Shown here piece by piece: positions 840 through 10,582 of a DNA stretch of 22,406 nucleotides. Source of the DNA: a virus; the IMG/VR virus record IMGVR_UViG_3300020159_002253, positions 1 through 22,406 of that record; one strand, written 5' to 3'. The number at the start of each line of letters is the position of its first letter. Positions within the stretch are counted from its first letter, which is position 1. The notes under the pieces were generated by a model. That model was not told where the DNA came from. It searched no databases and saw nothing but the letters and a program-made list of their open reading frames with translations. The translations under genes were made by a program, and so were the position numbers.

Positions 840-994
840 TCGGTCCAGCTTGGATTCCATGCCCTGAAGAATGCGGTGACTACTGGTGCAATATTCACCA
901 GCAGCATACCGGGGATTGTGACTGCCCGCCCATCGAGGAGTGGGACACAGACCCGTATGGTAACCAAGACGAAGGCCCAGCACATGCAGGATAA
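836..994 (+). CDS. Small Cys-rich phage protein, 52 aa
   Basis: The frame opens with an ATG in an ATGA overlap with the previous gene and closes at TAA 992-994, eleven bases inside the RusA start. It carries five Cys (residues 9, 13, 18, 28, 30) and His 21 and 24, followed by the segment DCDCPPIEEW and then DPYGNQ. From memory, short phage proteins with a Cys-x-Cys-Pro-Pro/Pro-x-Glu-Glu-Trp core occur in many tailed phages without known function. The Cys/His pattern suggests metal binding, which is an inference. The overlaps on both sides leave almost no untranslated DNA and support it being a real gene despite its size. Confidence 0.65.
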   Translation: MIGPAWIPCPEECGDYWCNIHQQHTGDCDCPPIEEWDTDPYGNQDEGPAHAG

Positions 995-1448
995 GAACAT
1001 TTTAGACATTCTTGGTACTCCTTTATGGAGTATCACTATGCCAATACCGCCTTCGACTAACTCGTTATTCATGCCTGTTGCCACTAAGGGCAGGTCAAGG
1101 ATGGTTATAACCAAGGAATATAGGGAATGGCGCAAGTCTCTTGATCTGATCGAATGGAAGGACGCGCCTATATTCACTCACAAAGTATTTATTGTTGTTG
1201 AGGTAAGGCCAGGACCTACGCTATCGGACAAGGCAGATGCTGACAACCTGGCTAAAGCCCCGGTGGATGCCCTAGTGAGGCATCAGGTATTGGTGGATGA
1301 TAATAGGGATTATGTTAGGGGTGTAATGACCTACTTTGGTAGCCCCATCGATTCACAAGCCGAAGGGTTCGCCATCGTCTCCATCTTTGGTGAGTGGGTT
1401 CTCAACGGCAAGCATCAGGAACCTGCCCTGTTTGATGGCTACCAATAG
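984..1448 (+). CDS. rusA-like: RusA-like Holliday junction resolvase, 154 aa
   Basis: RusA-family nucleases are dimeric Mg-dependent endonucleases that cut four-way junctions, in phages to resolve recombination or replication intermediates. The hallmark DADNLAKAPVDAL begins at residue 85, with a DD pair at 105-106. E. coli RusA uses Asp70, Asp72, Lys76 and Asp91. Asp85, Asp87, Lys91 and Asp106 here match with a constant offset of 15, so the active site looks complete. The N-terminal PIPPSTN segment (residues 20-26) is the usual start of the fold. I choose ATG 984 over a GTG at 876, because 876 would overlap the 52-aa gene almost entirely and because GAAGG (971-975) lies upstream of 984. The length is typical, with a C-terminal tail of about 25 residues of unknown role. 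Confidence 0.88.
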   Translation: MQDKNILDILGTPLWSITMPIPPSTNSLFMPVATKGRSRMVITKEYREWRKSLDLIEWKDAPIFTHKVFIVVEVRPGPTLSDKADADNLAKAPVDALVRHQVLVDDNRDYVRGVMTYFGSPIDSQAEGFAIVSIFGEWVLNGKHQEPALFDGYQ

Positions 1449-2042: not shown

Positions 2043-2237
2043 GCAAGGCTGATGCCTGGATATCAAACCATATTCCCTGATATCACTATGCGGATTATTA
2101 CTTTTTAGTAAGGTAGTGTTTTTGTGGGCTTGTCTTGCTTGTGGCCTGCCGATAAGATGAATGGGTGGACGGTAAACCGCCGCCATTGTTTGTTTCTGAT
2201 ATCAGCTGATATCAGTAGGATAGGAAGGGATAGTGAA
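2043..2237. promoter_or_regulatory. Upstream region with paired CTGATATCAG palindromes
   Basis: The perfect 10-bp palindrome CTGATATCAG occurs twice back to back (2196-2205, 2206-2215), 22 bp before the start at 2238. Two more GATATC sites lie at 2059-2064 and 2079-2084. A dimer-binding operator controlling the 2238 gene block is the simplest reading, but no regulator gene is identified. I see no convincing -10/-35 pair. Confidence 0.45.
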
Positions 2238-2570
2238 ATGATAGCAAGCAAGTCAAATGATAGACTCAGCAAACTATTGCCAGATTGGATTATCGAGAAC
2301 AGGCCGTGGTATAGCATGATGCTAAACCTAGCTATAGATGGCGATAGAAATGCTATCTTGCGAGAGCTGCAGCATAATGATCCTAACGGTTGCTATACCG
2401 ATAGGCTTTGTTATAGCGAGTTCCGTAAGATTATGTCAGAAGATGACGCGATATGGCAAGTGGCACATGAGGTGCTATCTCAAGCTAGGGATCTTAATGG
2501 CGATATAGTTTCTTTTATCAGGAGTGGTGTTTTTGATAGCTTCTATGGCGATGCTTCTATCGGTGGTTGA
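2238..2570 (+). CDS. Hypothetical protein, 110 aa
   Basis: Family not recognised. The ATG at 2238 follows AGGAAGGGA (2222-2230) at good spacing. The upstream extension to 2124 would run through the paired palindromes and has no ribosome binding site. The protein is soluble, mixed helical and acidic toward the C-terminus, with only two Cys and no signal or membrane segment. It is the first gene of a block (2238-4672) whose coding DNA is unusually rich in GATA/TATC, AGC and GCT words. It may be an early phage gene, but its context gives no specific function. Confidence 0.6.
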   Translation: MIASKSNDRLSKLLPDWIIENRPWYSMMLNLAIDGDRNAILRELQHNDPNGCYTDRLCYSEFRKIMSEDDAIWQVAHEVLSQARDLNGDIVSFIRSGVFDSFYGDASIGG

Positions 2571-2619
2571 TTGTTGATATCTTGTGTTTATAACTTTAAA
2601 TGGAAGGATAGGATTAGTC

Positions 2620-3420
2620 ATGAAAAGCAATAAGGTGACAGGTTTTTGTTTCTACAATGGGCCAAGTGAGATCGACGGCAAGCCGATTATGGGCGTTGCT
2701 ATCTTTGATAGCACAAACCGTAAGACTGGCAATATGGTGCAAACCTATATAATGCGAAGTGATATCTCCCCTACTATTGCTGCTAGCAATGGTGAGGATG
2801 AGTCTATCTGTGGCAATTGTGCCTATAGGAAGCGCAACATAAAGATATGGCACCCTAAAAAGGGATGGCTTAATGCTAACAAGCGTAGGTGTTATGTTAA
2901 CTTGGGTCAGGGCCCGTTAGCAGTTTATAAAAGTTTCTGCAAAGGCAACTATCCTGATATCAGCAGCAATCCAGGTTTACTGCAAAAGATATCAGGTGCA
3001 ATGCTAAGGCTAGGGACTTATGGCGATCCTATGGCTATTCCATATCAGTCCTGGCAGCCGTTATTGCAAGCTGATATCCAAGGCCACACGGGCTATAGCC
3101 ATCAATGGGACAATGATAAGCTTGCCTTGCCTTGGATAGGTAAACTGATGGCTAGTGTAGAGAATGCTAGCCAAAGGTTGCGTGCGATAGCAAAAGGATG
3201 GCGCGTATTTCAAGTGCTGAATACTTGGGATGATTCTGCTAGCAATGGATTAGGCGTGTGTCCATCTAGCAAAGAGTATATAGCAAAGACTGGTAAGAAG
3301 ATACCATGCTCAAGCTGCAAGCTATGCAATGGTAGCAAAACCAATATCGGTATAAAGGGGCATGGTCCGTTTTGGTCTGACGATAGCGAGCCATCTACTG
3401 CTCGCATATCCTTGCTATAA
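2620..3420 (+). CDS. Conserved Cys-rich phage protein, 266 aa
   Basis: From memory this resembles an uncharacterised family in actinophages and other phages and plasmids, recognised by CYVNLGQGPLAVYK (residue 91 on) and RLGTYGDP (130 on). Seven conserved-looking Cys cluster in two groups: CGNC (64-67) with Cys91, and Cys214 with C-x2-C-x2-C at 230-236. This spacing suggests a zinc or iron-sulfur site, which is an inference. HTGYSHQW (156-163) and KGWRVFQV (192-199) are further motif-like segments. The start is ATG 2620, twelve codons inside the longest frame, with AGGATAGGA just upstream. Three GATATC palindromes lie inside the gene. Enzymatic activity is unknown. Confidence 0.75.
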   Translation: MKSNKVTGFCFYNGPSEIDGKPIMGVAIFDSTNRKTGNMVQTYIMRSDISPTIAASNGEDESICGNCAYRKRNIKIWHPKKGWLNANKRRCYVNLGQGPLAVYKSFCKGNYPDISSNPGLLQKISGAMLRLGTYGDPMAIPYQSWQPLLQADIQGHTGYSHQWDNDKLALPWIGKLMASVENASQRLRAIAKGWRVFQVLNTWDDSASNGLGVCPSSKEYIAKTGKKIPCSSCKLCNGSKTNIGIKGHGPFWSDDSEPSTARISLL

Positions 3421-3448
3421 TCACTATTGAAAGGATAGGAGGTGCTAT

Positions 3449-3730
3449 ATGTGCATATCATTAGAAGAATTCGTTGCTAGCAAGATACCATTCAAATATA
3501 GCGACTTGTCATCTTCGTTTATCTTTGGCAACCATATCGATATGGGCGATAGTGGCTTTGCTTACTTGCCCTGGATATGTGATAGCAAGATAAATACATG
3601 CTGCTATATCTTGAAAAGAACTGATAGCAATGGATGGTTTCTGTCTATCGCCAATTGCCAGTATGAAAGCAATAGCATAGAAGAGCTAGAGAAAGTGCTG
3701 TACGAGTGGGCTGTTGATGAGTTTGTATAA
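3449..3730 (+). CDS. Hypothetical protein, 93 aa
   Basis: Family not recognised. A strong ribosome binding site (AGGATAGGAGG, 3432-3442) sits six bases before ATG 3449. The protein is acidic, with an aromatic-rich middle and a C-terminal helix (YESNSIEELEKVLYEWAVDEF). That layout is common in small phage proteins that bind other proteins, but no motif identifies it. TTGCTAGCAA (3474-3483) is another perfect 10-bp palindrome inside the coding sequence. It lies 28 bp after the Cys-rich gene, in the same presumed operon. Confidence 0.65.
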   Translation: MCISLEEFVASKIPFKYSDLSSSFIFGNHIDMGDSGFAYLPWICDSKINTCCYILKRTDSNGWFLSIANCQYESNSIEELEKVLYEWAVDEFV

Positions 3731-3757
3731 CAGGAACCTGGAAGGAGATATATAGCT

Positions 3758-4018
3758 ATGCAAGAGTATATGTTTTGGTATGTGGATTTATCGGGAAGAG
3801 ACAATAGCTATTTTATGTCAGCAGATGATGCTAGAGAGCTATTGCGTGATGAACTTGCCGATCTAGAGATGTCACTATTTGACTACACATATAAATGTGA
3901 AGAGATAGATGACTTTGTATATAACCCGATAGATGGTAATGAGTGGAATGAAGAAGGTTCTTTCAAGATAGTATGCGTAGCTAAGAAAAGCTTGCGCCGT
4001 ATGAAAGGTGGTAAGTAA
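3758..4018 (+). CDS. Acidic hypothetical protein, 86 aa
   Basis: Family not recognised. GGAAGGAGA (3739-3747) precedes ATG 3758 at normal spacing. The product is strongly acidic in its first 75 residues (many Asp/Glu, for example DELADLEMS and CEEIDDF), then ends in a basic tail (KKSLRRMKGGK). An acidic small protein in an early phage region could be a DNA mimic or inhibitor of a host enzyme, but nothing here proves that. Its stop TAA overlaps the next ATG as TAATG (4016-4020), which suggests coupled translation. Confidence 0.65.
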   Translation: MQEYMFWYVDLSGRDNSYFMSADDARELLRDELADLEMSLFDYTYKCEEIDDFVYNPIDGNEWNEEGSFKIVCVAKKSLRRMKGGK

Positions 4019-4242
4019 TGTCTAGCAACCTGGCACCCGGTGATATCAAAAGAGTTGTAACTCTATGGACTAAGATGCATCGTATCAACGAAGCTATCGA
4101 TAGGGTTAAGGCTGATATCAAACTTAGCAAGCAAGTATCAACTGATATCGCCCTGGCGAGGAAGGCTATAGAAGTTGCTATCAATGGCTTGTCTAGTGTA
4201 GCGTTTACTGGCATATCTAAATATCAGGATAAGGAGGCATAG
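4018..4242 (+). CDS. Small helical protein, 74 aa
   Basis: Family not recognised. The start ATG 4018 overlaps the previous stop, and AGGTGG (4006-4011) is a suitable ribosome binding site. The protein is basic and predominantly helical by composition (KRVVTLWTKMHRINEAIDRV, then ADIKLSKQVSTDIALARKAI), possibly a coiled coil. Three GATATC sites occur within 225 bp of coding DNA. The stop codon (4240-4242) falls inside the first copy of the 62-bp repeat that begins at 4236, so the gene end and the repeat have evolved together. Confidence 0.55.
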   Translation: MSSNLAPGDIKRVVTLWTKMHRINEAIDRVKADIKLSKQVSTDIALARKAIEVAINGLSSVAFTGISKYQDKEA

Positions 4243-4366
4243 CGGAAAAGCTTGCGTGTATATCAAACGCGCGGTTTTAGATATTGGAAAGTTTCTAGGC
4301 ATAGCGGAAAAGCTTTCGCCTGTATCTAGTACGCATATTCAGAAATCGGAAGTTTTCAAGGCATAA
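4236..4366. repeat. 62-bp tandem repeat carrying GCGGAAAAGCTT
   Basis: GGCATAGCGGAAAAGCTT occurs at 4236-4253 and 4298-4315, and the rest of the 62-bp unit is partly conserved (TGTAT, an ACGC, then GGAAR-TTT-). A third copy starts at 4360 but keeps only GGCATA. The core GCGGAAAAGC is the same element as in the 34-bp-period array at 1451-1536, and GCGGAAAAGCTTTCG (4304-4318) is identical to 1522-1536. The array fills the gap between the genes ending at 4242 and starting at 4397. No terminator T-run is present. Confidence 0.7.
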
Positions 4367-4396
4367 CCAAAGATATCAAGGGATAGGAGTTTTACC

Positions 4397-4672
4397 ATGA
4401 ATGAATCACATAATGCACACGAAGCTAGTGTTACTATCAGGACTCTTCAGAATATTGCCAAAGAGTTATATCTGATACAAAACTGGACGGAGGATATGTT
4501 CGAGTATAGGCCTGGCAAGGGTGAAGATATCATCAACGAAGATATTGCTAAGATAAAGCAAGCAATTGGTGGTAAGAGCTATGACACTATAACCGCCCTG
4601 GTAGACAAGATAAGGTCTATAACGGTCGGCATAGAGCTTGCTATACGGAGTGAGTATTCTGATATGTTCTGA
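4397..4672 (+). CDS. Hypothetical helical protein, 91 aa
   Basis: Family not recognised. ATG 4397 is preceded by AAGGGATAGGAG (4378-4389) at acceptable spacing. The protein is mostly helical, with alternating hydrophobic positions (TIRTLQNIAKELYLIQNW and ITALVDKIRSITVGIELAI), no Cys and no membrane segment. It resembles the 74-aa protein at 4018 in composition and in containing GATATC within the coding sequence, but I see no clear homology between them. It is the last gene before the operator-like array at 4673-4900. Confidence 0.6.
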   Translation: MNESHNAHEASVTIRTLQNIAKELYLIQNWTEDMFEYRPGKGEDIINEDIAKIKQAIGGKSYDTITALVDKIRSITVGIELAIRSEYSDMF

Positions 4673-4900
4673 TAAGACCTGGTAGTAATTGATATCAGAA
4701 TATATCTTCCCGTAGTATTCTGATATCAAACTATATCCGCCCTGGCAATTGATATCAAATGCTATAGATCCATATAGATCCATATAGATTGATATCAGGG
4801 CCAGGGCTACCGATATACCGTGATATCAGGCCTGGCGGCCTATAGCTTTGACAGTTTACCCGATATATCAGGCATAATATCTGATATCAGGACTGTTTAT
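4673..4900. promoter_or_regulatory. Array of TGATATCA palindromes, six sites
   Basis: Non-coding DNA holding GATATC at 4691, 4722, 4751, 4791, 4822 and 4883, nearly all as TGATATCA. TTGATATCAGAATA (4689-4702) and TATTCTGATATCAA (4716-4729) are a perfect 14-bp inverted repeat with a 13-nt spacer. TTGATATCAA (4749-4758) and CTGATATCAG (4881-4890) are 10-bp palindromes. CCTGG or CCAGG flanks several sites. Three near-identical decamers, with CATATAGATC as consensus, stand in tandem at 4761-4790. This looks like an operator, origin or partition-type array. Which one cannot be decided from sequence. Confidence 0.6.
4848..4878 (+). promoter_or_regulatory. Candidate sigma70-type promoter
   Basis: TTGACA (4848-4853) is a perfect -35 hexamer. 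CATAAT (4873-4878) matches five of six -10 positions, but the spacer is 19 bp, longer than the optimum. The likely start point would fall on the CTGATATCAG palindrome at 4881-4890, and another TGATATCA site lies upstream at 4821-4828, so repression by a palindrome-binding protein is plausible. It would drive the gene at 5034. Confidence 0.35.
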
Positions 4901-4956
4901 TGTGGGCGCGGTTTTAACCTTACAAAAAAGTAATGTAAAGTAGGGTTTACCGTTTT

Positions 4957-5004
4957 CCGATAGTTTGTTTTGATATCCAAAGGTTAACCATTTCGGTTGG
5001 CCGG
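4957..5004. promoter_or_regulatory. Upstream regulatory unit, copy A
   Basis: CCGATA, then TGTTTT, then AGGTTAACC (4981-4989) followed by CGGTTGGCCG (4994-5003). The same order and spacing recur at 5488-5536 before the next gene. The 23-bp core beginning AGGTTAACC differs at only two positions between copies. GGTTAACC is a palindrome and AACC...GGTT can form a small hairpin. It probably controls transcription or translation of both small genes in the same way. Confidence 0.55.
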
Positions 5005-5029
5005 AACGGAACGGAACGGAACGGAGCGG
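5002..5029 (+). repeat. CGGAA pentanucleotide repeat overlapping a ribosome binding site
   Basis: CGGAA occurs four times in tandem (5002-5021), followed by CGGAG and CGG. The variant unit supplies the GGAG (5023-5026) that lies seven bases before ATG 5034. Changes in repeat number would alter the leader next to the initiation site. Each unit also offers a weak GGAA pairing site for 16S rRNA, so the repeat may act as a multiple docking site. Confidence 0.65.
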
Positions 5030-5033
5030 TAAG

Positions 5034-5411
5034 ATGATTAAGATTAAGCGGGACATGGCCAACGAAACCCTAACAAAGCTACGGAATTGGTGTTCGGACC
5101 AAACTGGCACAATAGCTTGGCCGTCATCGTTCAACAGTCTTACCGAGCAAGTATGGTATTCCGAACACAAAGACAAAGACGGTGGTTGGGAAGTCGGCTT
5201 CACAATAACGGCAAGACCTAGGGCCGCTTATTTCAATTTCAGCTTGGCCGTATATGTGAGAGATTCGGTCGGGGCTTATACCTCAACGGAAGTCGACCTA
5301 TCGAGTATTAAAAAGAATGGCAAACAAGTTTGGTCCAACTATGCTGAGGATATGTATCGGTCAATGAAATACCTTTGCCGATCACAAGTTGAATTTATGA
5401 CAAAGAAATAA
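5034..5411 (+). CDS. Hypothetical protein, 125 aa
   Basis: Family not recognised. The start ATG 5034 is fixed by the GGAG embedded in the CGGAA repeat. The protein begins with a basic, helical stretch (about residues 1-25) and then reads like a beta-rich domain with alternating polar and hydrophobic residues (WEVGFTITARP, YFNFSLAVYVRD), ending in a helix. There is no signal or membrane segment. It is a single-gene unit: the duplicated regulatory element and a candidate promoter lie upstream, and a strong hairpin terminator lies 21 bp downstream. Confidence 0.65.
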   Translation: MIKIKRDMANETLTKLRNWCSDQTGTIAWPSSFNSLTEQVWYSEHKDKDGGWEVGFTITARPRAAYFNFSLAVYVRDSVGAYTSTEVDLSSIKKNGKQVWSNYAEDMYRSMKYLCRSQVEFMTKK

Positions 5412-5432
5412 AATACCTACGATCCGCCAGCC

Positions 5433-5467
5433 AAGCCCAGCCCCTAAAACGGCTGGGCTTTTTTTTT
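5433..5467 (+). terminator. Intrinsic terminator, copy A
   Basis: AAGCCCAGCC (5433-5442) and GGCTGGGCTT (5451-5460) form a perfect 10-bp stem with an 8-nt loop (CCTAAAAC), followed by seven more T to 5467. It ends the 5034 gene. The same stem and nearly the same loop recur at 5798-5829. Confidence 0.9.
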
Positions 5468-5487
5468 AAGCTGGGCTTGCGTCATTG

Positions 5488-5536
5488 CCGATAAGCTGTT
5501 TTAATCCTTATCAGGTTAACCAATTCGGTTGACCGC
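5488..5536. promoter_or_regulatory. Upstream regulatory unit, copy B
   Basis: Second copy of the element at 4957-5004, with CCGATA, TGTTTT, AGGTTAACC (5513-5521) and CGGTTGACCG in the same order. In this copy GATAAG (5490-5495) and CTTATC (5507-5512) form a perfect 6-bp dyad with an 11-nt spacer, an operator-like shape. TTGCCG (5486-5491) is a possible weak -35. It stands upstream of the gene at 5565. Confidence 0.5.
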
Positions 5537-5564
5537 TAAGGATAGGAACGGGAAGGATAGAACC

Positions 5565-5777
5565 ATGCCAAGCTTAACGGTTGTGCCCGCATACGGCAGG
5601 GATTATAAAACACAAAAAGATGCCAAGGCCGCATGGGCTGAAGGTAAAGACTTTGTTATTAGCTGCCTGTTTTCCCCTGACGATGGCCGCTATGTGAACA
5701 AGTCGGACGCACCCAAAGGTTATTTCATAAATATAAGGTTTAAGAAGAATGCTGGGCTGGTGGTGATTAAAACCTGA
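5565..5777 (+). CDS. Conserved small phage protein, 70 aa
   Basis: The start ATG 5565 follows GGGAAGGA (5550-5557). An in-frame TTG at 5529 lies inside the regulatory unit and is unlikely to be the start. The protein opens LTVVPAYGRDY and continues with KDFVISCLFSPDDGRYVNKSDAPKG and NIRFKK; from memory this pattern (VPAYGRDYK..., KDF, D-G-x-x-x-NKSD, NIRYKR) recurs in short uncharacterised phage and plasmid proteins of about 70 aa. It is a compact, basic, probably alpha/beta protein with no catalytic signature. It has its own copy of the duplicated upstream element and its own terminator, so it is expressed as a one-gene unit. Confidence 0.7.
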   Translation: MPSLTVVPAYGRDYKTQKDAKAAWAEGKDFVISCLFSPDDGRYVNKSDAPKGYFINIRFKKNAGLVVIKT

Positions 5778-5778
5778 T

Positions 5779-5914
5779 CCCAGCCCCAGCCCAGCCCAAG
5801 CCCAGCCCTTAAAACGGCTGGGCTTTTTTCGTTTACCCTTAAAAAGCCATTTCATCCGTAATGGGCGATCCCAGCCCAGCCCATACCAAAGCCCAGCCCA
5901 GCCCAGCCCCGCCC
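5779..5914 (-). repeat. C-rich CCCAG arrays, quadruplex-prone on the complement
   Basis: Two runs of closely spaced CCC tracts (5779-5808, six tracts; 5870-5914, eight tracts) arise from repeats of CCCAG/GCCCA. On the minus strand they read as GGG runs separated by 2-8 bases, satisfying the usual quadruplex pattern twice over. Scattered further copies continue to about 6034. The first run also contains the 5' arm of terminator copy B. Confidence 0.7.
5798..5829 (+). terminator. Intrinsic terminator, copy B
   Basis: AAGCCCAGCC (5798-5807) pairs perfectly with GGCTGGGCTT (5816-5825) around an 8-nt loop (CTTAAAAC), followed by four more T. The stem is identical to copy A at 5433. Here several extra CCCAGCC copies just upstream could pair with the 3' arm instead, so alternative hairpins are possible. 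Confidence 0.88.
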
Positions 5915-6084
5915 ATAACGCATTCTAGGGCCATTCCCAGCTAAGATAAACCTATCTGATTAATGCCCAGCCCAGTAGGCTACCGTTCCCAAGCTTACAA
6001 TCTAGCAAGGTTTTACTTGGCACCCAAGCCCAGGGCAACCATTACGCATCTTTATAGTCTTTTAATATTTGAACGCGGCTATAT
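5915..6084. other. Non-coding spacer with scattered CCCAG motifs
   Basis: No gene, RNA or dyad of note. Isolated GCCCAG copies occur at about 5965-5974 and 6026-6033, as if decayed from the adjacent array. Base composition falls from GC-rich to AT-rich toward 6084. Confidence 0.4.
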
Positions 6085-6085
6085 G

Positions 6086-6187
6086 GTAGTATTCTACTAT
6101 TAAGATCTTAATTCTATTAATAGTAGTAGTATATAGTCTAGTAGTTTAGTAGTGAGATAGTAGTAGTGGGAAGAATACTATACTACC
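6086..6187. repeat. TAGTA-rich inverted and direct repeats
   Basis: CTACTATTAA (6095-6104) and TTAATAGTAG (6117-6126) are a perfect 10-bp inverted repeat. TTAAGATCTTAA (6100-6111) is a palindrome overlapping it. TAGTAG or TAGTA units then recur to about 6168, and GAATACTATACTACC (6172-6186) is roughly complementary to GGTAGTATTC at 6086. The region could hold an origin, an operator cluster or a supercoiling-sensitive late promoter region. Confidence 0.5.
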
Positions 6188-6529
6188 AATATCCTTAATA
6201 GCTTAATAGTCTTCTACTCTTTTTATCTAGATTGTAGTTATCGGTTAGTGCCAGTCAAGGGGGATAAAAATAATCTTTTATTATTTCTATCTACTAGGGT
6301 GCTTATTAAGGATTCGCACATTAGGGATAAAAAAAGTATTTTTATATTCATACGGAAATCATCGCATATTCGGGGGCCAGGCCTTTCACCACCTCACTAT
6401 TTAACACACTTTTTAATAGCTTACCCATATTAACATTATACTAGTCAATACGGAAATTTGCACTATGGGGTATCTTTTAATAATGCATTACAATATAAGT
6501 GAGGTGTAATTTTTTGGGAGAAAATTTTT
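6188..6529 (+). promoter_or_regulatory. Late operon leader with possible promoter
   Basis: AT-rich DNA upstream of the terminase genes. A weak promoter candidate is TTGCAC (6458-6463) with TAATGC (6481-6486) at 17 bp, but the -10 is poor and other late phage promoters can depend on activators. GGGAG (6515-6519) is the ribosome binding site for ATG 6530. A 61-codon frame at 6248-6433 starts at GTG without a ribosome binding site and I do not call it. Confidence 0.3.
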
Positions 6530-7072
6530 ATGGCATACAACGAGCGCAGCGGAATACCCAACATCAGCAGCCTGGTGGAAGTGCCAACAGAGGACCGCAA
6601 ATCGGTCATCAAGGAAGCCAAAGACCGCAAAAGCAGACCTGCAATTACCCAGTTAACAAATGAAGAGATTATAGGTTCTCTTAAGAAATGCAGAGGTCTT
6701 TACTACCTAGTTGCACATCATTTAGGTGTTAGCAAAGGCGCGCTGTCCTACCGTATTGCAAACGATCCTGAGCTTGAGGCAGTAGCGAAGGATGAGCGCG
6801 GTAGGATGTTGGATGTTGCCGAGACTAAGCTTATGGAAGCCGTAGAGGAAGGGCAGCAATGGGCTATCCAGATGATCCTCAAAACGCTTGGTAGAGATCG
6901 CGGCTATGTGGAGCGTCAGGAGATAGCGTCTGTTTCCCAAGTTCGTCTACAAGTGGTGGAGGAAATTGTTGATGCAAATTCCTCACCGGATGTTACGATA
7001 GGCGTCAATATCCCAAGCGGTGCATACAAGCCAAAACTCCCAGAGAGCTTCGACGATGCCTCCGAAACCTAG
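6530..7072 (+). CDS. terS: Terminase small subunit, 180 aa
   Basis: Small terminases form ring oligomers that recognise the packaging site and recruit the large subunit. Here residues about 43-80 form a helix-turn-helix (EEIIGSLKKCRG, then HHLGVSKGALSYRIANDP). They are followed by a helical oligomerisation segment with the typical AETKLMEAVEEG and the end motif LGRDRGYVER near 120, all common in this family. The start ATG 6530 has GGGAG at 6515-6519. The C-terminal 45 residues are Pro/Ser-rich and probably contact the large subunit. It overlaps the next gene by 14 bp, as usual for terminase pairs. Confidence 0.85.
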   Translation: MAYNERSGIPNISSLVEVPTEDRKSVIKEAKDRKSRPAITQLTNEEIIGSLKKCRGLYYLVAHHLGVSKGALSYRIANDPELEAVAKDERGRMLDVAETKLMEAVEEGQQWAIQMILKTLGRDRGYVERQEIASVSQVRLQVVEEIVDANSSPDVTIGVNIPSGAYKPKLPESFDDASET

Positions 7073-8354
7073 AGGTATAGCTCCGAAGGACCAAGCGGTT
7101 AATAAGTCTGAACTGAAGACTATTACCCGCACGGTAAAGCTGCATCGCATCCAGCATGACTTCCATCACTCCCAGGCCCTCTACCGTGGCTTTGTGGGCG
7201 GTATCGGTTCAGGCAAGTCCTATGTGGGTGCTTACGACCTTTTGCGCCGTGCAATGAGCGAGGAGGGGCGCGGCAGGCTTTACATGGTCATTAGCCCAAC
7301 CTATACGGTCCTTCAAGACGCAACCATGCGTACTATCTACCAGATTGCCGATGACTTGGAGATAACCAAGGAGAAATGGAAACAGCCTCCCCGCTTGGTC
7401 CTTTCAAACGGGTCAGAAATTATCTTCCGTTCAGGTGACGATCCAGACAAGCTGCGAGGCCCGAACCTTTCGGGTATCTGGATGGATGAGGCAAGCCTGA
7501 TGGAGGATGAGGTTTTCAATATCTGCATTGGCCGCCTTCGTGAAGGCGGGCGCATGGGCTTCCTGACTGCCACATTTACACCCAAGGGTATGGGGCATTG
7601 GACATACGATGTATTTGGTAGGGGTGACCGGGAGAATACGGCACTATTCAGGTCTAAGACTTCACAGAATCCTTTCTTGGCGCGTGAGTTTGTTGGGGCG
7701 GTCTCAAAGCAGTATTCAGACAGACAGGCCAACCAAGAGCTTGACGGGGAATTCGTAGATCAGGAAGGTGCGGAATGGCCTAACTCGCACTTTGGTGATC
7801 ACATATGGGTCGATGAATTTCCAAAAAACGAATACATAAAAATAAAGACCTTGGCCCTGGACCCATCCAAAGGCAAGGATGCCAGGCATGGTGACTATTC
7901 AGCAATCGTCAGGCTGGCTCGTGACTTCAAAGGAATTCTATACTGTGATGCCGTACTTCAACGGGCAGATTCAGAAAGGCTAATAGAGAAATTCATAAAG
8001 GAATCATATGAATTTGAACCAGATGCAATGGTTCTTGAGACAAACCAGTTTCAGCACCTATTGGCAAAGCAAATAATCCAAGAATCAAAAAATCAAGGAA
8101 TAGATATTCCAATTATCCAACTTTACAATACCATTAACAAGGATGTGCGTATCAGGAGACTCGGACCTCATCTCGCCAACCACACTATCCGATTTCGGAG
8201 ATCAGAGGGTTCCAGGCTCCTAGTTGCACAGCTGCGTGAGTTCCCGCTCGGAAAGTTTGATGATGGGCCTGACGCACTTGAGATGGCATTACGGTCTATG
8301 ATTTCTATCTGGAACAACCGGAGGAATCATACGACAAGGAGAATTATCGCATGA
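7059..8354 (+). CDS. terL: Terminase large subunit, 431 aa
   Basis: ATP-driven DNA packaging motor and genome-end nuclease. Walker A is GGIGSGKS at about residues 48-55, Walker B with the catalytic Glu is IWMDEAS at about 141-147, and the coupling motif is TATFTPKG at about 171. The C-terminal RNase H-like nuclease shows the acidic residues in LALDPSKG (about 267-274), VLETNQF (about 326-332) and FDDGPDALEMAL (about 400-411). All functional parts look intact. I use ATG 7059 rather than a GTG at 7020, which would overlap terS by 53 bp. The stop overlaps the portal ATG as ATGA (8351-8354). Confidence 0.95.
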   Translation, partial: PPKPRGIAPKDQAVNKSELKTITRTVKLHRIQHDFHHSQALYRGFVGGIGSGKSYVGAYDLLRRAMSEEGRGRLYMVISPTYTVLQDATMRTIYQIADDLEITKEKWKQPPRLVLSNGSEIIFRSGDDPDKLRGPNLSGIWMDEASLMEDEVFNICIGRLREGGRMGFLTATFTPKGMGHWTYDVFGRGDRENTALFRSKTSQNPFLAREFVGAVSKQYSDRQANQELDGEFVDQEGAEWPNSHFGDHIWVDEFPKNEYIKIKTLALDPSKGKDARHGDYSAIVRLARDFKGILYCDAVLQRADSERLIEKFIKESYEFEPDAMVLETNQFQHLLAKQIIQESKNQGIDIPIIQLYNTINKDVRIRRLGPHLANHTIRFRRSEGSRLLVAQLREFPLGKFDDGPDALEMALRSMISIWNNRRNHTTRRIIA

Positions 8355-10582
8355 GCGTATGGAAACAAATCATCGACTTCATCCTTCCTGGAAGAGCAAG
8401 TGCCCCAGCATCAAGTGAGCATGGAAAAAAAGTCCGAAGACCTTTGCGAGAATCGACTCTCACAAGTGATTTCTGGCTTTCTAATTATGTCGATCTACTG
8501 GATCGTTTTAGGGATGGCGGGGTATTTGCTTACCCCATCTCAAACCCACAAGACCGCCGATACGGTTCAAACTTCCCGTTCTGGTACTCGGAACAGCAAC
8601 TAAGCGTTATCCGCGCCCAAGCTAGACTAGTTGCAACTACCAGCCCAAATGCTTTGGGTCTGCTAAACGGTCTTTGCTCTTATGTGGTAGGTCCTGGATA
8701 TAACTACCATGTTTCTCCTAAGAGCGACAAGAGCGTAGAAGAGTCAACAGTTGCAGCTTGCCAAGCTAAGATCGACAGGTTTATAAACGAAAATGACTGG
8801 TCGAATTTTGAACAAGAAATATTTACAAGGTCTAGAACTGATGGAGAAACATTCCTCCGTTTGTTCCCGCAACCTTCAGGTCGAATGCTGATAAGGACTA
8901 TTGAGCCGGAACAGATAATTCAACCACCAGGAGAAGACTTCTCCAACTGGTCATATGGTATCCAGACTGACCCGGATGATGTATTTAACATCATGAATTA
9001 CCATGTGAATTATTTTGCTCCAAAGGGCGAAGATTTAGAACATGATTCAACACCAAGCACTCCGCAGGGCGAGATCGTAAGTGTTGACAGGATCGTGCAT
9101 ATTAAGTGCAATGTTCCTCGCGCCATCAAACGGGGTCTATCGGATTTTAGCTACGAGACTTTGGAAACATTCAACATCGCATCCAAGCTGCGCCGTAACC
9201 TCGGTGAGGGTGCATCGGTCCAATCGGCCATTGCTGCCGTGCGCCAACACGATGCCGCTTCTCACGCCCAAGTGGAAGCGTTCGTCGAAGAGAATATTGA
9301 TTATTCTGTGGCCCAGGTTCCTACTGGACGGGCAACTGATTATCAACGGATTGAACCTGGAACATTCCTCGATATTCCGAAGGGAATGAACTATGTGAAG
9401 CCTCCTGGTGCGGATTCTGCAAAAGACCACTTAGATATCTTCCAAGCCCTTCTACGCTCGGCTGGCAACCGACATAACGCACCAGAGTGGTTGTCATCTG
9501 CCAATGTGTCTGGCGCAAATTATGCCTCCTCGTTGACAGCAGAATCGCCGTTCTTAAGGAACTGCGTTCGCCTTCAATCAATGTATAGAAGTCACTTCAA
9601 GAAAATTATGACTGAGGTAATTAGGAACTCAGCCGAAATGGGCGAGTTGCCTATAAACATACTGGACTTGGTTGATATTGTGGTAACCCCGCCAGCAGTT
9701 GAAGCAAGAGACAAGATTGCTGATTCTCAATCCGACCAGACCTACTACACAATTGGGGCTAAGTCTATCCAGACTATCTCTCAAGAGCGCGGTTTAGATT
9801 TCGAGCAAGAGCAGCATAATATTGAGCAAATGCAAGAGAAGATGGCAAACGAATCTCTTGCAGGGCAAGACCCAAGTGCCCAAATGTCTGACTCCGCTTT
9901 GAACGGACTCCAAATTGAAAACTTGGTTGGTATCGTTATGCGTGTTGCAACTGGACAAATTCCTGTCGATGTTGGCCGCGCGGTTGCTCAAGCAGTATTC
10001 CCGTTGATGCCAGAAGATCAGATAGCCAACATATTCCCAGATTCTTTGGAAGGTTCGCAAGAACCTGCTCCAAAGTCCGCTGCACCTCCAAAAGCGGTAA
10101 AAGGATCGCCTACTGGCATGGATAGAGACCTTCGCCTTGGTCAGACATTTGGCAGGGTATCAGCAGCTTCAGCACTTGGTGGGGCAAGGAAATCTGATGA
10201 CGGAAGTCCTCCAGTACCTAAAGCTGTCAAGGAATCCCTGCAAGAAGATGTTAAAGGGAAATATGATCACATTGAATTTCACCCTCCAAAGCAAGTGCGT
10301 AGTGCCGCAAGCAAAGGACTAAAGCTCCGTGAAAAGTATGGGCGAGGCGGTACAGCTGTTGGTCTTGGAAGAGCCAGGGACATTGTCGCCGGGAAGGAAA
10401 TGACCCCTAAAGTAATCAACAAGATGGTTTCTTTCTTTGCTCGTCATGAAGTGGACAAGAAGGGCGAAGGCTGGGGTAAGGATTCGGCTGGGTACATAGC
10501 CTGGCTATTGTGGGGTGGAGATTCCGGCTGGGCTTGGGCAAAGAAGGTTCAAGGCCAAATGGAAGCCGCTGATAAAAAATGA
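8351..10582 (+). CDS. Portal protein with extra C-terminal domain, 743 aa
   Basis: The portal is the dodecameric ring at the capsid vertex through which DNA is packaged and the tail attached. The first ~500 residues have portal character: an N-terminal segment before FWYSEQQLSVIRAQAR (about residue 75), LCSYVVGPGYNYHV, a long helix-rich middle, and a wing/stem region with FLRLFPQPSGRMLIRTIEP. Its position between terL and a Mu-F-like gene fits. After a low-complexity linker (about 570-635) comes an independent domain (about 640-738) starting HPPKQVRSAASKGLKLREK and ending GYIAWLLWGGDSGWAWA. From memory, this small domain recurs in phage head proteins with unknown role. At 743 aa the protein is longer than most portals because of this extension. 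Confidence 0.9.
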   Translation: MSVWKQIIDFILPGRASAPASSEHGKKVRRPLRESTLTSDFWLSNYVDLLDRFRDGGVFAYPISNPQDRRYGSNFPFWYSEQQLSVIRAQARLVATTSPNALGLLNGLCSYVVGPGYNYHVSPKSDKSVEESTVAACQAKIDRFINENDWSNFEQEIFTRSRTDGETFLRLFPQPSGRMLIRTIEPEQIIQPPGEDFSNWSYGIQTDPDDVFNIMNYHVNYFAPKGEDLEHDSTPSTPQGEIVSVDRIVHIKCNVPRAIKRGLSDFSYETLETFNIASKLRRNLGEGASVQSAIAAVRQHDAASHAQVEAFVEENIDYSVAQVPTGRATDYQRIEPGTFLDIPKGMNYVKPPGADSAKDHLDIFQALLRSAGNRHNAPEWLSSANVSGANYASSLTAESPFLRNCVRLQSMYRSHFKKIMTEVIRNSAEMGELPINILDLVDIVVTPPAVEARDKIADSQSDQTYYTIGAKSIQTISQERGLDFEQEQHNIEQMQEKMANESLAGQDPSAQMSDSALNGLQIENLVGIVMRVATGQIPVDVGRAVAQAVFPLMPEDQIANIFPDSLEGSQEPAPKSAAPPKAVKGSPTGMDRDLRLGQTFGRVSAASALGGARKSDDGSPPVPKAVKESLQEDVKGKYDHIEFHPPKQVRSAASKGLKLREKYGRGGTAVGLGRARDIVAGKEMTPKVINKMVSFFARHEVDKKGEGWGKDSAGYIAWLLWGGDSGWAWAKKVQGQMEAADKK

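Follow-up and report, generated by a model that had tools for sequence, protein, structure and literature searches.

A helically phased excess of short, near-palindromic sites marks a gene cassette between rusA and terminase in a phage genome

How does one short palindrome come to crowd a single part of a phage genome? The DNA analyzed here—"the window," all 22,406 bp of IMG/VR record IMGVR_UViG_3300020159_002253—contains a block of about 3 kb, lying between its RusA and terminase genes, in which GATATC is strongly over-represented. The excess, flagged in a first-pass annotation of the sequence, is real and larger than first noted: GATATC is the most visible part of a broader bias toward (G)[A/C]TA[T/G](C), here called MTAK, which takes in GATATC, GATAGC, GCTATC, and GCTAGC. 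Two properties come as additions to that annotation. The sites keep phase with the helix, and the block is best explained as an exchangeable allele of an accessory-gene cassette that sits between rusA and terminase. Loci compared with the window are referred to by L-numbers (L005, L106, etc.).

An exact count over the window gave 26 GATATC, 21 of them starting between 2059 and 4972, none upstream, and five downstream of the block (at 9434, 14687, 16711, 20927, and 21582). This agrees with the tally made by eye in the annotation (21 at 2059–4977, about five later, none earlier). Twelve lie inside TGATATCA, every copy of which (n = 12) falls within the block. Against Markov chains of orders 1, 2, and 3 fitted to the block's own sequence, GATATC was expected 1.4, 4.2, and 11.3 times (p < 0.001, < 0.001, and 0.004) and TGATATCA 0.2, 0.5, and 1.8 times (p < 0.001 each). 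Both thus exceed what local composition predicts, with the order-3 model taking up about half of the GATATC count; outside the block, 5.0 were expected and 5 seen. The degenerate form GMTAKC is no longer in significant excess at order 3 (37 vs. 30 expected), which places much of the GATATC excess in the 4-mers ATAT, ATAG, CTAT, and CTAG. Other palindromes behave unevenly: CTATAG (6 in the block, 2 outside) and GCTAGC (4 and 1) are enriched, ATCGAT is not (2 and 6), and TTGCTAGCAA, CTATCGATAG, and ATATCGATAT, which the annotation had called frequent in the block, each occur just once.

What, then, is the favored word? The 3-mers most enriched in the block relative to the rest are ATA, CTA, and ATC, and CTATAG, TGATAT, GATATC, TATCAG, ATAGCA, TAGCAA, and GCTAGC are among the most enriched 6-mers; TTA, TAA, and GTA show no enrichment, and ACTA/TAGT barely any (25 vs. 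17.8). Around the core [A/C]TA[T/G], the next base outward is preferentially G and rarely A, and the best form is TGMTAKCA. The block holds 161 MTAK sites, or 55 per kb, as against 12 per kb after 6500, and its TA steps are doubled (98 vs. 49 per kb). Words and their reverse complements are about equally frequent in most cases, and sites occur both within and between genes, as the annotation had it. In the six cassette genes we counted 111 MTAK, compared with 78 (standard deviation [SD] 5) after synonymous codon shuffling within each gene and 41 (SD 6) if codons are used as in the structural genes. The bias therefore acts on the DNA itself and spills over into codon and amino-acid choice. An RNA-level motif or a pure codon effect is ruled out by the strand symmetry, the presence of sites in non-coding DNA, and the codon shuffles.

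The sites are also regularly placed. Distances between MTAK pairs in the block peak at 10, 20/21, 30/31, 41/42, 51, and 61 bp, with a period of 10.25–10.45 bp that none of 500 gap shuffles reached, at lags of 8–60 and 60–110 bp alike; the phase stays coherent for 100 bp or more and has faded by ~150 bp. The phasing statistic is 7.9 for the window and 7.0 for the related locus L106, whereas 686 control windows of 3 kb from other viral contigs averaged 0.81 (SD 0.68, maximum 4.38). Phasing holds in the window's coding DNA taken alone, beyond what amino acids and codon usage account for (5.71 vs. a codon-shuffle null of 1.08, SD 0.65; 0 of 4,000 shuffles), a cruder earlier test at a single fixed period having been borderline (p = 0.066). 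The flanks of phased and of unphased pairs resemble one another to the same degree (0.28 and 0.27); an origin of phased pairs as slippage copies was rejected on this ground, which also speaks against tandem copying.

The block and its surroundings are laid out as follows (window positions):

876–1448, plus strand: left flank, Holliday junction resolvase of RusA type, in synteny with L143 7116–7535
2050–4985, no strand: MTAK block, 161 [A/C]TA[T/G] sites, 55 per kb, period ~10.25 bp, genic and intergenic
2059–2214, no strand: left non-coding part, GATATC at 2059, 2079, 2198, and 2208
2238–2570, plus strand: cassette gene, 110 aa, family matches not significant
2620–3420, plus strand: cassette gene, 266 aa, phrog_2554, gp88/DUF7227-like, Cys-rich
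3449–3730, plus strand: cassette gene, 93 aa, without a family match
3758–4018, plus strand: cassette gene, 86 aa, family matches not significant
4018–4242, plus strand: cassette gene, 74 aa, family matches not significant
4235–4358, no strand: two tandem 62-bp copies, 73% alike, with MTAK sites, non-coding
4397–4672, plus strand: cassette gene, 91 aa, without a family match
4680–4985, no strand: right non-coding array, GATATC at 4691, 4722, 4751, 4791, 4822, 4883, and 4972
6530–7072, plus strand: right flank, putative terminase small subunit, named by its position before the large subunit, with homologues in all relatives
7053–8354, plus strand: right flank, terminase large subunit, the query for finding relatives

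In the left non-coding part, MTAK sites stand 10–11 bp apart in two runs (2061, 2071, and 2081; 2200, 2210, 2221, 2231, and 2242), and the GATATC of the right array are separated by 31, 29, 40, 31, 61, and 89 bp. The 266-aa protein has relatives in Roseobacter, Klebsiella, and Mycobacterium phages; a close-match search for it in IMG/VR returned none, and the block and the L106 array had no distant DNA match among 50,697 phage records.

Is the block a stable part of this locus? The terminase search yielded 50 IMG/VR loci, about 40 of them close (L080 is L106 reversed, and L143 is the same as L127). Where contigs extend far enough, rusA is followed by small genes, a variable cassette, the terminase small subunit, and then the large subunit. 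L005 matches the window at 99.8% identity, but its sequence begins only at window position 5391, so the block is not covered. L106 and L119 are 95% identical in the left flank and 78–87% in the right, with unrelated DNA between; L124, L143, and L126 are 87–92% identical in both flanks and carry differing cassettes of ~3.7, 4.1, and 2.8 kb. The largest cassette gene is of the gp88/DUF7227/phrog_2554 type in the window, L106, and L124 and encodes DUF932 in L143 and L126. The cassette is thus exchanged between close relatives.

MTAK cassettes are found in L080/L106, L095, and L097; L143 has a related form, CTAG/TAGC. The window's cassette genes have no homology to those of L095 and none detectable, as DNA or translated, to those of L106, and the MTAK class and period (10.05–10.3) of both loci match the window's: the same word class is written over unrelated genes. 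In homologues of the L106 gp88-type gene from 79 other loci, MTAK density averages 11.0 per kb (SD 6.3), compared with 57 in L106; the word therefore travels with the cassette and not with the gene. The cassettes of L106, L143, and L126 open with a non-coding array of one MTAK unit per 10 bp; outside this array, phasing is still significant in L106 (0 of 300) and L143 (p = 0.010). Straight after the 10-bp array, L143 (8440–8560) and L126 (705–780) carry a 13-bp tandem repeat, GGCCCTAGCCTGT, in whose place L119, L123, and L105 have degenerate 9- or 18-bp arrays. Over 797 aligned bp of L095 and L106, 52 of 56 MTAK sites are kept, where about 12 sites would be expected to be hit by mismatches (P ~ 0.01). 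This null keeps the clustering of mismatches and replaces an independent-mismatch test that gave P = 0.0002; the conservation support is modest.

Other relatives favor other words. The annotation had pointed to close relatives at the same locus as a comparison, and this comparison does not refute its observation on GATATC and TGATATCA: some relatives lack GATATC there, but most of those examined favor a different word. AAGCTT is over-represented in L124 and L121, AATT in L105, CTAG/TAGCTA in L143, and TTTTG/CAAAA in L119, L123, and L126. L124 has 25 AAGCTT at 4.5–8.5 kb (cassette 4425–8106) and none in the other 17 kb examined, and the L121 cassette (2874–6300) has 24 of this HindIII word, the rest of the examined locus none. 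Coding DNA shares in the excess over codon-usage expectation for AAGCTT (17 vs. 5.1, SD 1.9, in L124; 16 vs. 5.3 in L121), more weakly for AATT in L105 (59 vs. 50) and TTTTG in L119 (14 vs. 8.9), and not significantly for TTTTG in L126. Conservation of AAGCTT sites between L124 and L121 was not above chance.

What could hold such a pattern in place? Our favored reading, to which we give an even chance, is that the block is a distributed, helically phased array to which a dimeric DNA-binding protein binds cooperatively, coating the exchangeable cassette. Each dimer would take one near-palindromic site (core [A/C]TA[T/G]); the sites would share one helix face, along which neighboring dimers would cooperate, and the cassette would be coated or wrapped as a nucleoprotein unit. 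Coating would most likely keep the cassette genes silent or organized until needed, this effect on expression being a guess. Because close relatives with near-identical flanks favor other words, the reader should be encoded by the cassette or the host. Among the meanings proposed in the annotation, sites for a DNA-binding protein are the best supported, given the phasing in coding and non-coding DNA, the strand symmetry, and the modest conservation, although no reader was found in these partial genomes. From these observations we infer a protein as the selective agent, coating as its mode of action, and the kind of reader discussed below. More tentatively, each allele may write all its DNA in its own "word dialect" (MTAK, AAGCTT, AATT, CTAG, or TTTTG), read by a cognate protein that recognizes, coats, and controls the cassette. 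The dialects would then form an addressing code over coding sequence, set to the helix as well in the case of MTAK.

Several results weigh against such an array. Pfam searches for RHH_1 and Arc (ribbon-helix-helix, RHH, families) found none in 17 records of the phage family, which are mostly fragments (those with the block are incomplete), other repressor types not having been searched. In the coding DNA of L080 alone, phasing is not significant (p = 0.1–0.17). The MTAK class was defined on the window itself; the relatives are independent tests, but L080 was found through the TGATATCA pattern. Mismatches per column between L095 and L106 are about as frequent at sites (16/210) as at non-sites (44/587). 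Phasing was looked for and not detected in the AAGCTT, AATT, CTAG, and TTTTG words, and so belongs to the MTAK cassettes only. Finally, the window's neighboring stretches have local words of their own: CA/CG on the left (1840–2046) and, on the right, CGG/GGCC (4986–5430), AGCCC (5430–5980), and TAGTA (5980–6530).

The last two points also speak for the main rival, mutational word amplification (cryptic simplicity), a possible but on balance doubtful account in which local motifs are copied by slippage or template switching and cassette vocabularies drift without a reader, the genes accepting words where protein function allows. Degenerate short-period arrays (9, 10, 13, and 18 bp) at the starts of the relatives' cassettes fit this process. 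It is harder to reconcile with helically phased coding DNA in which phased pairs lack shared flanks, with one MTAK class and period over unrelated cassette genes, and with the modest conservation of sites. Biased mutation, another of the annotation's proposals, offers no simple account of the helical phasing but may apply to the relatives whose words are unphased.

If the sites are bound, what kind of protein might read them? Three TGMTAKCA at exact 10-bp steps occur in five contigs in all of IMG/VR, two of which belong to the window's phage family. In the unrelated phage L149, such an array lies over the start of a gene whose RHH_1 match is sub-threshold. A search for four GMTAKC units led to a further unrelated locus, L141, where the promoter of an Arc-family gene (PF03869, 31 bits, above the cut-off) carries an array; TGMTAKCA recurs there every 10 bp (9174–9270) at the promoter TTGACA...TATGAT, divergent from the Arc-family repressor gene. 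No RHH or Arc support was seen for the arrays of L138, L147, and L148. Clustered TGATATCA in 80 other, unrelated loci recurrently shows spacings of 10, 11, 20, 30, and 33 bp. Since such arrays recur in unrelated phages, helically stepped TGMTAKCA appears to be a recurrent kind of protein-binding site, with RHH proteins one candidate reader; an RHH protein is thus a possible reader of the MTAK block as well. In the unrelated phage L087 (6572–7050), TGATATCA recurs at 11-bp steps in four clusters (3 + 4 + 4 + 4), like iterons or a partition site.

The gp88/DUF7227 protein was also considered as reader and judged unlikely, as it looks enzyme-like and not like a DNA binder. An AlphaFold model of the L106 protein (predicted local distance difference test score, pLDDT, 89) matches gp88-like viral proteins; compared with the PDB it had no significant match (best E 0.026), and the top matches were mostly barrel enzymes. 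A scan of genomes for the terminase, made to find the host, gave only matches of 34–35% in Anaerolineae and Gemmataceae metagenome-assembled genomes, too distant to name one.

The helically stepped clusters raise the further possibility of a replication origin, with the sites serving as iterons for a phage initiator across an unusually long origin region, which we regard as improbable. In its favor are the recurring spacings in the 80 unrelated loci and the TGATATCA clusters with 10/20-bp steps in L065 (4584), L019 (7367), L079 (10858), and L084 (7954), which lie inside similar genes (MPNRLxKESIC...). Judged by eye, these genes look like phage replication organizers, possibly initiator genes that, like lambda's, contain an origin. 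The block's 3 kb across six genes far exceeds those clusters, however; no initiator gene was recognized among the window's cassette proteins scanned, and the word differs between phages with near-identical flanks.

Even less probable is a host xenogeneic silencer or nucleoid protein (H-NS, MvaT, Lsr2, or Rok type) reading flexible TpA steps. H-NS, MvaT, and Rok do prefer such steps (PMC6212790), which are doubled in the block, and phages can encode such proteins (PMC7074111). These silencers, however, mostly want AT-only sites, while MTAK sites contain G/C (GATAGC, GCTAGC) and disfavor A two positions ahead of TA. Neither the lack of enrichment of TTA, TAA, and GTA nor the scarcity of extra ACTA/TAGT fits, the latter because Rok favors AACTA/TACTA (PMC6212790). 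Least probable of all is a modification or recognition tag, in which the cassette palindrome (GATATC, AAGCTT, AATT, or CTAG) would be a methyltransferase target or exchange tag, like uptake-sequence dialects: several words are palindromic and the 25 AAGCTT of L124 are confined to 4 kb, but helical phasing is not needed for a tag, TTTTG is no palindrome, MTAK is degenerate, and no methyltransferase family turned up in the cassette-protein scans, none of which was aimed at methyltransferases.

How does the block compare with known systems? Judged by the traits that define each of them, four can be set aside: stoperators, HIP1, the p6-type complex, and the targets of known xenogeneic silencers. 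In cluster A mycobacteriophages (L5, Bxb1), stoperators are many dispersed sites, some of them genic, with a lineage-specific consensus read by a phage DNA-binding protein (PMC6550527, PMC9283540). The block shares the dispersal and the sites within genes. Stoperators, however, are asymmetric 13-bp sites, up to ~30 per genome and in one main orientation, unlike the symmetric 4–8 bp sites found here, which number 161 in 3 kb, are helix-phased, occur alike on both strands, and are restricted to a single cassette. The annotation had likened the excess in kind to HIP1 of cyanobacteria, also a strongly over-represented palindrome of coding and non-coding DNA; as kinship this fails, because HIP1 is enriched genome-wide and the block word is confined to one cassette (21 of 26 GATATC in 2.9 kb) and varies among close relatives. 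Protein p6 of phi29 organizes phage DNA over long stretches by reading bendability that repeats with the helix (PMC10899789); it recognizes no specific sequence and makes contacts every 12 bp, whereas the block's period is 10.25 bp and its word is defined. In phage and plasmid origins, iterons likewise form short repeats at helical spacing, but their arrays are short and near-identical, the block's sites being degenerate over six genes. RHH operators resemble the block in the kind of site and its spacing, although no RHH protein was found in the 17 records searched, mostly fragments; one of them is that of RelB, whose short palindromic sites are bound by dimers on one DNA face (PMC2812701). 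The block family has the TGMTAKCA-like sites at one-turn spacing expected of an Arc/RHH operator array, but the operators of Arc, Mnt, and RelB cover a promoter and the block spans 3 kb of genes. The half-sites of the FitA operator, another of this kind, are TGCTATCA and TGATAGCA.

Two features of the neighboring DNA may be added. At the block's left edge, where the relatives have short-period arrays, about 200 bp (1840–2046) alternate for the most part between purine and pyrimidine (CA, CG, and TA steps; alternation 0.79) and are possibly Z-DNA-prone. To the right, (CGGAA)n lies at 5005–5030, and the AGCCC stretch surrounds a gene at 5529–5777.

In known phage operator systems, sites lie mostly at promoters or between genes and number in the tens; here, short, helically spaced sites saturate whole genes, and the signal in the DNA is strong enough to shift both codon choice and amino-acid content. 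If the sites are read by a protein, they would amount to a nucleoprotein code written on coding DNA. That the favored word changes at one locus among close relatives with nearly the same flanks provides natural experiments for finding that reader. More generally, local k-mer signatures in phage genomes can mirror cassettes instead of hosts.

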